In this document: positions 59,689-64,000 of the stretch, piece by piece | How positions within the stretch are numbered: the stretch's first letter is position 1 | Layout of the letters: the number at the start of each line of letters is the position of its first letter | Source of the DNA: Sulfuritalea sp. | GTDB lineage: Bacteria > Pseudomonadota > Gammaproteobacteria > Burkholderiales > Rhodocyclaceae | Reading direction: 5' to 3' | NCBI RefSeq assembly: GCF_017302275.1 | Contig: NZ_JAFLDR010000011.1 | Coordinates: 1 to 64,000 of the forward strand | DNA: 64,000 nt | The notes under the pieces: model-generated | The model's input: the letters and a program-made list of their open reading frames with translations, nothing else | Databases searched by the model: none | What the model was told of the DNA's origin: nothing | Position numbers and translations under genes: made by a program

Positions 59689-60023
59689 GTCCGTGCCAGT
59701 CCTGCGGCGCATGCTGCGCGACCTACCGCGTTTCCTTTCCGAGATTCGAAGTTGACGACATGCCCGACGGCAGGGTGCCGGGCGCGCTGGTGGAGTCCTG
59801 CGGCGCGAATCTGGTTTGCATGCGCGGTACCGGCGCGGCGCCGGCACGCTGCGTCGCCCTGCGCGGTATCATCGGCGAGCCGGTTTCCTGCGCCATCTAC
59901 GAGTTCCGTCCCAGCGCGTGCCGTGATTTTGCTCCGCTGGCCGCCATCGGGCGCGGCGACGAGGCCTGCAACGATGCCCGTCGGCGCCACGGTTTGCCTC
60001 GGCTAGTTCCGGTCCAGCCATGA
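59685..60023 (+). CDS. YkgJ-family cysteine-cluster protein
   Basis: A 112-residue protein with the CxxCxxCC pattern (CQSCGACC) at the N-terminus and further cysteines in CAIYEFRPSACRDF, the UPF0153/YkgJ metal- or cluster-binding fold. The GTG at 59685 lies inside the pit stop (GTGA), and the cysteine cluster starts four residues later, so no later start is possible. The stop overlaps the EamA gene by 4 nt. The function is unknown. Confidence 0.82.
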   Translation: MSPCQSCGACCATYRVSFPRFEVDDMPDGRVPGALVESCGANLVCMRGTGAAPARCVALRGIIGEPVSCAIYEFRPSACRDFAPLAAIGRGDEACNDARRRHGLPRLVPVQP

Positions 60024-60904
60024 ACTCGCGGATGGCACCCGGTCCCGCTGCCTTTGGCTTGATGGTGCTGTTATGCGCGATTTGGGGCTTCCAGCAGGTC
60101 GCAATGAAGTTCGCCACCGCCGAGATTGCGCCCATCCTGCAGGCGGCGATCCGCTCGGCCGGTGGCGCCCTGTTGGTCTTTGCCTGGGCGCGCTGGCGCG
60201 GCGTCGCGCTGTTCGCGCGTGATCAGTCCCTGCGCCCGGGTTTGCTGGCCGGGTTGCTGTTCGGCCTGGAGTTCGTTTTCATTTTTGTCGGCGTCGAGCG
60301 CACCACGGTGTCGCGCATGGTGGTGTTCCTCTATACCGCGCCATGCTTTACCGTGCTCGGGCTGCATTTCTTCGTCGCGGGCGAACGCATGGGCTGGCGA
60401 CAGGGCGCCGGTGTGCTACTGGCCTTTGGCGGCCTGATGCTGGCCTTCATCGACAAGGCCGCAGGTGGCAGCCTGCTGGGCGATGCCTTCGGCGTGCTGG
60501 CCGCGCTGTTCTGGGCGGCGACCACGGTATTGATCCGTGCAACGGCACTGGCCAGAGTGACTGCGACCAAGGTCCTGCTCTACCAGTTGGTGGTCTCTGC
60601 CGCCGTGATGTTTCCCTTGTCCTGGCTAGCAGGCGAACGCGGCATCGCCGTGTTGTCAGCGCCGACTCTTTGGGCCATGACCTATCAGATTCTCATCGTC
60701 GCCTTTGCCAGTTACCTGGCGTGGTTCTGGCTTCTGACGCGTTACCTTGCCGGCCGCCTCCTGGTGTTTTCCTTTCTGACGCCCCTGTTCGGCGTCTGGT
60801 TCGGCATGATCCTGATGCACGATCAGCCCAGCCTGCATTTCTTCGCCGCGGCGGCGTTGGTGGTGGCGGGCATCGTGCTGGTAAACCTGCCGGCGCGGAA
60901 ATGA
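60020..60904 (+). CDS. EamA/DMT-family transporter
   Basis: A 294-residue ten-helix transporter with two EamA repeats: one from about residue 12 (LMVLLCAIWGFQQVAMKF) and one from about 155 (GDAFGVLAALFWAATTVLIRA). The substrate is unknown; relatives export amino acids or metabolites. It is coupled by ATGA overlaps to the genes before and after. An in-frame sequence resembling the 24-bp repeat lies at 60648-60673. Confidence 0.88.
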   Translation: MNSRMAPGPAAFGLMVLLCAIWGFQQVAMKFATAEIAPILQAAIRSAGGALLVFAWARWRGVALFARDQSLRPGLLAGLLFGLEFVFIFVGVERTTVSRMVVFLYTAPCFTVLGLHFFVAGERMGWRQGAGVLLAFGGLMLAFIDKAAGGSLLGDAFGVLAALFWAATTVLIRATALARVTATKVLLYQLVVSAAVMFPLSWLAGERGIAVLSAPTLWAMTYQILIVAFASYLAWFWLLTRYLAGRLLVFSFLTPLFGVWFGMILMHDQPSLHFFAAAALVVAGIVLVNLPARK

Positions 60905-61593
60905 CGCCCGGCGAGGCGTTTTCCACCGGTCTGCGCGCCGTCATGCCGCTGCTGCTCGGCGTCGCACCGTTCGGCGTGATATATGGCGTGGTAGCCCTGC
61001 AAAGTGGAATTCCCGCCGTGGCGGCGATGGCCATGTCGACCATCGTGTTCGCCGGTTCCGCACAGTTCCTGCTTGCCCAGCTGGTTGGGGCCGGCGCACC
61101 AATCCTGCTGACGGCGGGCGCGGTCGGCCTGATCAACCTGCGGCACGCGCTCTACAGCGCCTCGGTGGCACCGCTGCTGGCACGCCTGCCGCAGCGCTGG
61201 AAGATCTTGCTGGCGTACCTGCTGACGGACGAGGCGTATGCGGCGGCGATTCCACACCTTCTGGCGGATGCAGGCGGCAGGCAACCCGCCAATGCGCACT
61301 GGATCCTGTTCGGCTCCGGGGCGGGTCTGTGGTGCGGTTGGCAGATTTCCACCCTCGCGGGGGTGCTGGTCGGAACTCGACTGCCTGCCGACATGGAGCT
61401 GGATTTTGCGCTGCCGCTTACCTTCATCGCCATCGTGGTACCTATGATATCCACCCGCGCGCTGTTCGCCGCGGCGATTGCAGCAAGCGCTACCGCCGTT
61501 GCGCTGGCGGCGCTGCCCTACAAACTGGGATTGTTCCTTGGCGCACTGGCCGGCCTGGCGGTGGGCTCGGCGCTGGGCAGGAGGCCGGCATGA
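60901..61593 (+). CDS. azlC: AzlC-family branched-chain amino acid exporter subunit
   Basis: A 230-residue membrane protein. LLLGVAPFGVIYGVVAL, STIVFAGSAQFLLAQLVGAG and NLRHALYSASVAPLL are the AzlC hallmarks. With AzlD it exports branched-chain or related amino acids. It overlaps the EamA gene upstream and azlD downstream by 4 nt each. Confidence 0.93.
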   Translation: MTPGEAFSTGLRAVMPLLLGVAPFGVIYGVVALQSGIPAVAAMAMSTIVFAGSAQFLLAQLVGAGAPILLTAGAVGLINLRHALYSASVAPLLARLPQRWKILLAYLLTDEAYAAAIPHLLADAGGRQPANAHWILFGSGAGLWCGWQISTLAGVLVGTRLPADMELDFALPLTFIAIVVPMISTRALFAAAIAASATAVALAALPYKLGLFLGALAGLAVGSALGRRPA

Positions 61594-61901
61594 CGCTTTG
61601 GGGCCTGATGCTGTTGAGCGGGGCGCTCACCTTTGCCATCCGCTATTCCTTCATTGCGGCCGAGGGGCATTACCTGCCTCCGGACCGGTTTCCCCGGTTG
61701 CTGCCCTTTGTGCCGGTTGCCGCGCTGACGGCTCTGACCGCCCCGGAACTTATGCTGGTGGGCGGCGCCGTCGAATTGGGTACGGGAAATTCGCGGCTCT
61801 GGGCCGGCGTGGTCGCCATCGCCGTCGCCGCGATCGGACGCAGCACCCTGCTGACGATCGCCAGCGGCTTCCTCGCGCTGTTCCTGTTGCAGCGGATCTG
61901 A
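61590..61901 (+). CDS. azlD: AzlD-family exporter subunit
   Basis: A 103-residue, four-helix AzlD protein: ALTFAIRYSFIAAEGHYLPPDRFPRLLPFVPVAALTA is the typical core. It is the small partner of AzlC and needs it for export. It ends 3 nt before the senA stop on the other strand. Confidence 0.93.
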   Translation: MTLWGLMLLSGALTFAIRYSFIAAEGHYLPPDRFPRLLPFVPVAALTALTAPELMLVGGAVELGTGNSRLWAGVVAIAVAAIGRSTLLTIASGFLALFLLQRI

Positions 61902-61904
61902 GTC

Positions 61905-63101
61905 CTATCCGCCCGGACAACTGCGAAAGCCGATGAAGATGTCATCGCGCCGGGGTTCGTAGTAGTTCCGGTAGCGGGGATTGCGCATGCGTTCGCGGGT
62001 GGCGAAAGAACCGCCGCGTACGCTGCGATGGGTGTGGAAGTATGGTGCGGCGTACTCCGCGTAGGGGTCGGGGCTGAAGCCGGGATAGGGCTCGAAGGGG
62101 CTGGCGGTCCATTCCCAGACCTGGGTACCCCAATCGAACCGGGTGGCGTTCAGCGCCGCGAATTCCCATTCAGCCTCGCTCGGCAGGCGCCGCCCGGCCC
62201 AGCGGCACCATGCTTCGGCCTCGTGCGCGGTGAGGTGGATGACCGGTTGGGCCAGGGCGAGATCGACCCAGTTGCCGAAGCGGCGCTGCTGCCAGCCGCT
62301 TTCGTGCCGGCGCCAGTAGCGCGGCGCGACTTGCCCGCTCGTCCCGAGCCAGGCACGGCCTGTGGCGGACCACCACTGCGGCTCGCGGTAGCCGCCCGCT
62401 TCGACGAACGCGAGGAAATCCGAATTGGACGTCGGGCTGCTGGCGATGGCGAAGGATTCGACGCGAACCGGATGTGACCACTTTTCGTTGTCGAAGACGA
62501 AGCCGCTTCCGTTTTCGGGGCTGCCCATGCCGAACTCGCCGCCTTCCAGTCCAATGTCGGCCACGGGCGGCAGGTCGCCGAGGCCGTCGACCGACGGCCA
62601 CCCCAGCGTCTGGCGCGTGTAGCGGAAAGCTTCGTCATGCATGTCTTCATGGAACAGCGCGAGGCGGTGAAAGTAGAGCGCCGAATCGGTATCGGGAAGG
62701 TTTTCCAGTGCCTCCAGGGCGCTGTCGAGCGTGTCGCGCAAATAGATTCTCGTGGCCTGCCAGTCAGGCAGGTCGAGTTGCCAGCGACTACCGTGGGCGA
62801 CGCGACGCGAGTCGTACCAGCGGTCGGCATCAGGCAGGCAGGATTCGATCGGTGGCATTTCTCTGCCCCGATAGCGCTGGCACCAGTATTCCGTGAACCA
62901 GGCGACGTGACCGAGTTCCCACAGCGGAGGATTGATCGTGTCGAGAAAGGGAACCCGCAGGGGGTGCGAGGCCGCACTGCCTTCGGCGCCGAACGGCCGC
63001 GACCATGCGGCCCATTCGTCAAGCAGGCGGATCGTATAATCGCGGGCATCCCGCAGCGCGGCAGCGAGGATCGCCTTTTCGGCAGTTCTGAGGTCATGCA
63101 T
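61905..63101 (-). CDS. senA: selenoneine synthase SenA (EgtB-like)
   Basis: A 398-residue EgtB-type enzyme. The N-terminal DinB-like domain has iron-ligand candidates His64 (WELGHVAWF) and the HEDMHDE motif (His151, His155). The C-terminal FGE-sulfatase domain has GGEFGMGSPENG, AWCRWAGRRLPSEAEWEFAA, and ends with RNYYEPRRDDIFIGFRSC. SenA joins selenosugar to hercynine to make selenoneine. The function is assigned because the adjacent gene is a SenB-type glycosyltransferase; by sequence alone an ergothioneine EgtB is a possible alternative. The start at 63101 overlaps the senB start head to head. Confidence 0.85.
   Translation of the reverse strand: MHDLRTAEKAILAAALRDARDYTIRLLDEWAAWSRPFGAEGSAASHPLRVPFLDTINPPLWELGHVAWFTEYWCQRYRGREMPPIESCLPDADRWYDSRRVAHGSRWQLDLPDWQATRIYLRDTLDSALEALENLPDTDSALYFHRLALFHEDMHDEAFRYTRQTLGWPSVDGLGDLPPVADIGLEGGEFGMGSPENGSGFVFDNEKWSHPVRVESFAIASSPTSNSDFLAFVEAGGYREPQWWSATGRAWLGTSGQVAPRYWRRHESGWQQRRFGNWVDLALAQPVIHLTAHEAEAWCRWAGRRLPSEAEWEFAALNATRFDWGTQVWEWTASPFEPYPGFSPDPYAEYAAPYFHTHRSVRGGSFATRERMRNPRYRNYYEPRRDDIFIGFRSCPGG
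63035..63040 (+). promoter_or_regulatory. candidate -10 element for senB
   Basis: TATAAT on the plus strand lies 60 nt upstream of the senB ATG, inside the 5' coding part of senA. No good -35 is visible (the closest is TTCGTC with a 14-nt spacer). Because there is no intergenic region, the senB promoter must overlap senA if both starts are right. Confidence 0.4.
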
Positions 63102-64000
63102 GGCTAAATCCGTCCTCCCTTCAATCAGTATCGTCAGCCCGGCCCTGGCCAAGGCCAACAACGGCAATTGGCACACCGCGAAGCGCTGGGCGCACTGCCT
63201 GGCTCGCAGCGCGCGGGCGCGCATCGAACTGGACTGGAGCGGTGCCGACGACAGCATGATGATTGCCCTCCATGCACGACGTTCCGCAGCGTCGATTGCC
63301 CGTTTCGCCGAAGTTTATCCGCAACGCCCCCTTGTTCTGGTGCTGACGGGAACGGACCTGTACCGCGACATCAGGACGGATCCGCAGGCGCAACGCTCGC
63401 TGAAGCTTGCTACCCGCCTCGTCGTGCTTCAGTCCGAGGGCATCCGCGAACTGGAGGCAAGCCTTGCCGCAAAGGCAACGGTGATTTACCAATCGGCGCG
63501 GCCCCTGATGCCGGGTCGGCGCAGCAAGCGCCATTTCGACCTGGTTCTGGTTGGGCACCAGCGGCCGGAAAAGGACCCGCTCACGGCCATGCGTGCGTTG
63601 CGCCTCGTACCCGATGACGTTCCGGTACGGCTGTTTCATGTCGGCGCCGCACTCGACTCCGAACTGGCTGCCCAGGTCGCAAAGCTCGGTACGGGCGACG
63701 GTCGCTACCACTGGCTTGGTGCCCTGTCCCAGTCGCAGACCCGCCAGCGCATCAAGCGCAGCCACCTCTTGTTGCTGCCGTCGCGCATGGAGGGCGGCGC
63801 CAACGTGTTGATCGAGGCCGTGACCAGCGGCGTGCCGGTGCTTGGCAGCGACATTTCCGGCAACCGGGGCATGCTCGGTACGGACTATCCTGGATGGTTT
63901 CCGGTAGGCGATGCAGCGCGACTGGCAGAGCTGATTGTCAGAGCGGCACGCGACCCGCGCTACTATTCGACCTTGTCCGCTCGCTGCGCCCAACGGGCTC
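63100..64000 (+). CDS. senB: selenosugar synthase SenB-like glycosyltransferase (partial)
   Basis: The first 300 residues of a GT-B glycosyltransferase; the gene runs off the window end. It shows SISIVSPALAKANNGNWHTAKRW at the start, LVLTGTDLYRDI, then LVLVGHQRPEKDPLTAMRAL, and LLPSRMEGGANVLIEAVTSG and VPVLGSDISGNRGMLG in the donor-binding half. This matches the SenB family, which forms the carbon-selenium bond of selenosugar from UDP-GlcNAc and selenophosphate. Divergent pairing with an EgtB-like gene supports that role. A selenophosphate synthase (senC/selD) is expected nearby but is not in view. Confidence 0.85.
   Translation, partial: MAKSVLPSISIVSPALAKANNGNWHTAKRWAHCLARSARARIELDWSGADDSMMIALHARRSAASIARFAEVYPQRPLVLVLTGTDLYRDIRTDPQAQRSLKLATRLVVLQSEGIRELEASLAAKATVIYQSARPLMPGRRSKRHFDLVLVGHQRPEKDPLTAMRALRLVPDDVPVRLFHVGAALDSELAAQVAKLGTGDGRYHWLGALSQSQTRQRIKRSHLLLLPSRMEGGANVLIEAVTSGVPVLGSDISGNRGMLGTDYPGWFPVGDAARLAELIVRAARDPRYYSTLSARCAQRA

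Follow-up and report, generated by a model that had tools for sequence, protein, structure and literature searches.

A divergent senA-senBC locus with egtD, very probably a complete selenoneine cluster, in a Rhodocyclales-like betaproteobacterium

The sen cluster of Variovorax paradoxus, consisting of senA, senB and senC, was reportedly described by Kayrouz et al. in 2022, and the ovoselenol pathway, with its enzyme OvsA, is attributed to Kayrouz et al. 2024 in a citation of PMC13188914. The steps that lead from histidine to selenoneine have been set out in two papers (PMC9814287 and PMC10891094), and each reaction and product that we assign below would follow by analogy with this published V. 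paradoxus work. A literature search on selenoneine in Betaproteobacteria, on surveys of SenB and on overlapping divergent starts has returned nothing, which shows only that these subjects do not occur together in the texts searched.

Here, we have analysed a stretch of 64,000 bases, referred to as the window, which corresponds to positions 1-64000 of a contig of 128,577 bases (C3) in an assembly of 4.4 Mb. A sequence-only reading had placed two selenoneine biosynthesis genes, senA and senB, head to head at 61905-64000, and both genes are located there, with profile scores far above chance: senA, which encodes a selenoneine synthase of 398 residues (SenA model NF041186), occupies 61905..63101 on the reverse strand, while senB, which encodes a selenosugar synthase of 324 residues (TIGR04348), starts at 63100 on the forward strand, with 300 residues inside the window (63100..64000) and its end at position 64074 of the contig. 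The genes of that reading are real, and their boundaries needed refinement: position 61905 is the end of senA, the start of senA is at 63101 and the start of senB at 63100, so that the two genes do not merely adjoin each other, as had been supposed, but overlap by two bases.

The third gene had been expected to lie outside the view, and this is where it is found: a gene of the SelD family (senC/selD; 432.6 bits, cut-off 125) runs on the forward strand from 64071 to 65135 of the contig, its ATG overlapping the stop codon of senB (ATGA), and the concern that the genome might have no selD at all is settled by the same match. Adjoining senC, on the reverse strand at 65142-66131 of the contig, is egtD (362.5 bits with the EgtD model, cut-off 290.9), the sole EgtD match in the genome (2.3e-108); all four enzymes, i.e. 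those encoded by senA, senB, senC and egtD, are thus found within 4.2 kb. The earlier suggestion of small-molecule selenium metabolism is borne out by the identities of SenA and SenB, with senC next door and egtD after it. The same arrangement of senA, senB and senC is conserved in the nine closest relatives of the locus, whose SenB proteins are 73-89% identical to that of the window (89% in L132), with senC of L138 being cut by the contig end; egtD is absent from the fetched locus in three of the nine (L136, L138 and L140), of which L138 ends inside senC.

The synthase had been recognised as an EgtB-like enzyme with the HX3HXE motif, and this motif reads HEDMHDE in the window's SenA, with a further histidine located in WELGH; the three histidines and the glutamate of the motif are invariant in all 74 aligned rows, which represent the best SenA-like match of each locus, with a small number of EgtBs among them and with three contigs present twice. 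The three histidines, together with the HX3HXE motif, would serve as iron ligands, as in EgtB. In a profile search, SenA reaches 512.1 bits (E 1.2e-153) with NF041186, i.e. 92 bits above the cut-off of 420, and 234.7 bits with the EgtB model TIGR03440, below the cut-off of 360. Taken by itself, the SenA model does not discriminate sharply, with true EgtBs reaching 347-403 bits and senB-adjacent SenAs scoring as low as 359.7 bits (G228) and 351.7 bits (G125), under its cut-off. The pair of scores has also been compared with a control of five EgtB paralogues from other genomes, i.e. five of the six paralogues that occur in our tree (the sixth, L078, is truncated at its locus end); with the EgtB model, these proteins score 544-600 bits, well over its cut-off of 360, while the SenA model gives them 347-403 bits, short of its cut-off of 420, and the pattern of the window's SenA is the reverse of theirs. 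The tree itself consists of 75 SenA/EgtB-like rows, obtained by dropping matches of fewer than 250 residues and those near a better one, and by leaving out L141, L145 and L147, whose contigs were already represented; it groups the window's SenA with senB-adjacent SenAs, including those of the nine close relatives, and sets six EgtB-like paralogues apart by a branch of length 2.91 with a support of 100/100. Among the structures of the PDB, the best relatives of SenA are the selenoneine synthases 8ryz and 8k5i (356 bits), followed by OvsA (8ux5, 205 bits) and EgtB (160 bits).

The neighbouring gene is likewise confirmed as a SenB-type selenosugar glycosyltransferase: the part of the protein that is located inside the window scores 393.2 bits (E 6.9e-118) with TIGR04348 and the complete protein 412.3 bits, at a cut-off of 300, and its closest relatives in the PDB are SenB structures (8jjq/8fbx, 280.5 bits; 8jjn, 280 bits; 8k5u, 265 bits), with the next match at 32 bits or less. 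Huang et al. 2024 (PMC10891094) tie a set of residues of V. paradoxus SenB to catalysis and substrate binding, and the window's SenB has equivalents of those listed there, i.e. N20, T23, H58, R61, T83, T85, R155, K158, E231 and E239. Our SenB alignment has 106 rows, in which three pairs represent one contig twice and L129-L131 are below the cut-off; K158 and E231 are conserved in all 106 rows, N20 in 104 (two gaps) and T23 in 104 (one serine, one gap). The motif given as EGGAHV in PMC10891094 is EGGANV in the window's SenB, where H235 is replaced; of the 106 rows, 79 have N at this site, 23 have H, two have F and two have L. At site 157, V. paradoxus has V and the window's protein E, as do 105 of the 106 rows, and V. 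paradoxus SenB is therefore the odd one at V157 among the rows aligned. An altered sugar preference through V157E and H235N, as a peculiarity of the window's SenB, was considered and rejected, both being the usual residues; conclusions on donor preference that are drawn from V157 may not transfer to most SenBs.

The scores bear directly on two other identities for the cluster. The EgtB-like gene could be an ordinary ergothioneine sulfoxide synthase that is located beside an unrelated family-4 glycosyltransferase, considering that the EgtB fold and the histidines are common to SenA and that the EgtB model does give 235 bits; this value is, however, below the cut-off that true EgtBs exceed at 544-600 bits, while SenA exceeds its own, the well-supported branch in the tree leaves the EgtB-like paralogues on one side and the window's SenA among senB-adjacent SenAs on the other, and the match of the second protein to SenB structures (265-281 bits) is set against 32 bits at most for any other glycosyltransferase. 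With the SenA and SenB models prevailing in both proteins, we regard the pairing of an EgtB with an unrelated glycosyltransferase as very improbable. Another selenium metabolite as the product of the cluster, e.g. ovoselenol through an OvsA-like synthase, is barely conceivable: OvsA does come second among the solved structures related to the synthase, but selenoneine synthase is far closer, and the presence in the cluster of an EgtD that would make hercynine fits selenoneine.

The locus is, very probably, a complete and standard selenoneine cluster of a Rhodocyclales-like betaproteobacterium, a kinship that is deduced from the 89% identical SenB of L132; senA points one way and senB-senC the other, with egtD oriented towards them from beyond senC. 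The gene identities, the catalytic residues, the co-location of the genes and their conservation are direct observations. In the proposed pathway, EgtD would trimethylate histidine to hercynine, and SenC, i.e. SelD, would supply selenophosphate; SenB would then join the selenium of selenophosphate to the sugar of a UDP-sugar, with phosphate being split off, to give a 1-selenosugar, and SenA, as an iron enzyme, would combine the selenosugar with hercynine to form selenoneine. Hercynine would be without an evident other user, because no EgtB above the cut-off is found in the genome, where the best match of the EgtB model is SenA itself (225.6 bits in this search) and the next match reaches 61.9 bits.

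The divergent orientation of the two genes, rather than their presence in one operon, had been presented as unusual, and this idea is now corrected. In a sample of 300 genomes of the order, 87 have a SenB over the cut-off, and all 87 loci have been examined: senA is located immediately upstream of senB in 53, and in every one of the 53 the pair is divergent, head to head, which rules out divergence as a special feature. The remaining 34 loci are without senA immediately upstream, with less than 1 kb of contig being available there in three; two of the 34 (L086 and L091) have a SenA-like gene downstream of senB on the opposite strand. In 26 of the 87 loci, senC directly follows on the strand of senB. 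Across a phylum-wide sample, SenB exceeds the cut-off in 13 of 398 genomes, and six of these 13 loci have been examined; divergent senA occurs in three of them (L153 from the same order, L157 and L160 from outside it), while the other three (L154, L155 and L158, from one genus outside the order) show no senA in the 1.5 kb that was fetched. In these last three loci, a SelD gene is located tail to tail with the over-cut-off SenB.

Some additional arrangements were observed during the survey. An EgtB paralogue is located within about 9 kb of senB in L060, L068, L076, L083, L088 and L078; all but L078 are confirmed by the EgtB model, and in each of these five, egtD is likewise located within the stretch that was fetched. 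Judging by gene content, ergothioneine and selenoneine may both be products of these six genomes. In family f18, represented by L129 (G245) and by G017, G064, G108, G147, G184, G215 and G275, the SenB-like proteins reach 156-229 bits and thus fall short of the cut-off of 300. The sub-cut-off SenB of L129 forms a head-to-head pair with a SenA-like gene, which at 384 bits is below its cut-off too, and egtD and selD are located next to this pair, while in G147 a SenA over the cut-off (421.9 bits) is divergent from the sub-cut-off SenB; a divergent sen lineage may therefore escape the SenB cut-off in this family.

What is modestly distinctive of the window's clade is that the divergent starts abut. 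The ATG of senA (complement of 63101-63099) and the ATG of senB (63100-63102) have in common the four bases CATG at 63099..63102. No other ATG, GTG or TTG is available to senB upstream of its conserved region, and alternative starts of senA exist only further upstream, deeper inside senB; the shared CATG is claimed as forced in the window only. Its interpretation as a widely selected device has been set aside, as the shared CATG is also seen in loci with other usable starts, where chance explains part of its occurrence. Overlapping or abutting starts are seen in all ten sequences, i.e. the window and its nine close relatives, with gaps of -8 to +13 bases: when the start nearest to the aligned region is taken, the gap in the nine relatives is -2 or -8, and when starts slightly inside the aligned region are allowed, it is +7 in L133 and +13 in L138. 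Since the start codons overlap, a promoter for either gene must be located inside the other gene in this clade, and we infer that senA and senBC would each be transcribed from a promoter embedded in the other. Candidate ribosome-binding sites, read from the sequence, are similarly embedded: GGGAGGA for senA, on the reverse strand at 63113..63119, is inside the coding sequence of senB, and the relatives largely keep its CTCC run, while GAGG for senB, on the forward strand at 63090..63093, is inside the coding sequence of senA.

A candidate -10 element for senBC, TATAAT, is located inside senA on the forward strand at 63035..63040, 65 bases before the start of senB, and occurs in the same column in eight of the ten sequences (the window and its nine relatives). 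Synonymous codon identity is 0.75 in senA residues 16-30, compared with 0.589 for the whole gene, and a second stretch of senA, from residue 371, equals that conservation. A scan of 62700-63500 for the sigma-70 consensus has returned no promoter, and one terminator-like site, where 0.7 were expected. We consider it plausible that TATAAT marks an embedded promoter and claim nothing beyond this. One could go further and regard the overlapping starts as a regulatory device, where the senA and senBC transcripts would be antisense at their 5' ends, setting the synthase against the selenosugar supply; the persistence of overlapping or abutting starts in the clade, the widespread TATAAT and the raised synonymous conservation around it are consistent with such a device. 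Yet TATAAT is missing in two of the ten sequences, the stretch from residue 371 is equally conserved, the consensus scan is without a promoter, and abutting genes are expected from compaction alone; moreover, in the 47 of 53 adjacent pairs of the order sample that have usable starts on both sides, the largest possible gap has a median of 48 bases and a range of -50 to 192 (at or below 0 in seven pairs and below 40 in 18), which shows that overlap is no general requirement. A regulatory role is, on balance, unlikely.

The interest of these findings is small at the window itself, where it concerns the abutting divergent starts, and larger elsewhere, where SenB occurs without SenA. The 34 loci that are without adjacent upstream senA have been divided by genome, the split being read by hand from the match list: 14 have a SenA over the cut-off elsewhere in the genome; six have sub-cut-off SenA matches, the best at 408 bits and the weakest at about E 1e-100, with the lower ones being in the range of true EgtBs; and 14 have, among the matches listed, none to the SenA model better than 5.8e-50. 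This last group consists of G106, G028, G069, G187, G043, G014, G261, G182, G088, G273, G243, G095, G050 and G201, with senB at loci L040, L047, L089, L099, L100, L106, L107, L111, L112, L114, L117, L119, L125 and L127; G106 and G095 have no entry among the listed SenA matches, while G014, G028, G182, G201, G243 and G273 have a weak match (E 1e-46 to 1e-50). All 14 genomes are at least 90% complete and have a SelD over the cut-off. EgtD is found in none of the 14 at E 1e-20 or better; the same model matched the window's genome at 2.3e-108, and as no control genome was matched in that search, this is not proof of absence.

The gene content of the 14 genomes suggests a use of the selenosugar other than for selenoneine; this is a lead and not proof of another product, because SelD may serve other selenium uses. 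The selenosugar made by SenB could, tentatively, be a branch point, leading to selenoneine in the window's genome and, in the 14 genomes, to another and possibly undescribed selenium metabolite; we hold this to be possible but doubtful, because the six weak matches to the SenA model could represent a different synthase, e.g. an OvsA-like one. Around 30 senB loci without senA, no candidate partner stood out among the neighbours, where the ORFs were picked greedily by length and include some spurious ones in GC-rich loci. Genes that recur there, named from their sequence and not by profile scanning, are RNA methyltransferase, HDOD, MotA/B-like and RnhB-like genes; by Pfam, the neighbours in L100 include PurH, Lnt, a cytidylyltransferase-like protein and an aldehyde dehydrogenase, and those in L099 an ABC ATPase. 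These near-complete genomes, with SenB and without detected SenA or EgtD, are a place to seek another selenium metabolite.

Other selenium genes are present elsewhere in the window's genome, where SelA (587.6 bits) and SelU (359.7 bits) both exceed their cut-offs, and where a second SelD of 758 residues, fused to a pyridine-nucleotide-disulphide oxidoreductase domain, is located on the reverse strand of contig C8 (L004:1390-3666; 292.1 bits, over the cut-off). The second SelD would serve selenocysteine and selenouridine, and senC would serve selenoneine; with SelA, SelU and the complete sen cluster, one cell is predicted to place selenium in protein, tRNA and a small molecule. On the other side of senA, three forward-strand genes, each overlapping the next, encode an EamA-type transporter (60020..60904; PF00892), AzlC (60901..61593; PF03591, 131 bits) and AzlD (61590..61901; PF05437, 69 bits), with azlD being tail to tail with senA. 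The three genes occur near senA in all ten loci, i.e. in the window and its nine relatives; as they are nearly absent from the order sample, with one further eamA match (L110) and none for azlC or azlD, they look like clade synteny rather than parts of the pathway.

Compared with the known systems, the cluster has in common with the ergothioneine pathway (EgtB/EgtD) the presence of EgtD and of an iron enzyme with the EgtB fold; that pathway uses a thiol donor, whereas a selenosugar donor is predicted for the window's cluster, in a genome where EgtB does not reach the cut-off. The ovoselenol pathway employs in OvsA a related synthase that is more distant in sequence from the window's SenA. In the sen cluster of V. 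paradoxus DSM 30034 (PMC9814287 and PMC10891094), the same three enzyme families occur, with SenC being SelD; relative to V. paradoxus SenB, the window's SenB keeps the catalytic residues and differs in having E instead of V157 and N instead of H235. The locus is an ordinary member of the pathway described in 2022, and its layout is that of its relatives in every case where senA is adjacent to senB.
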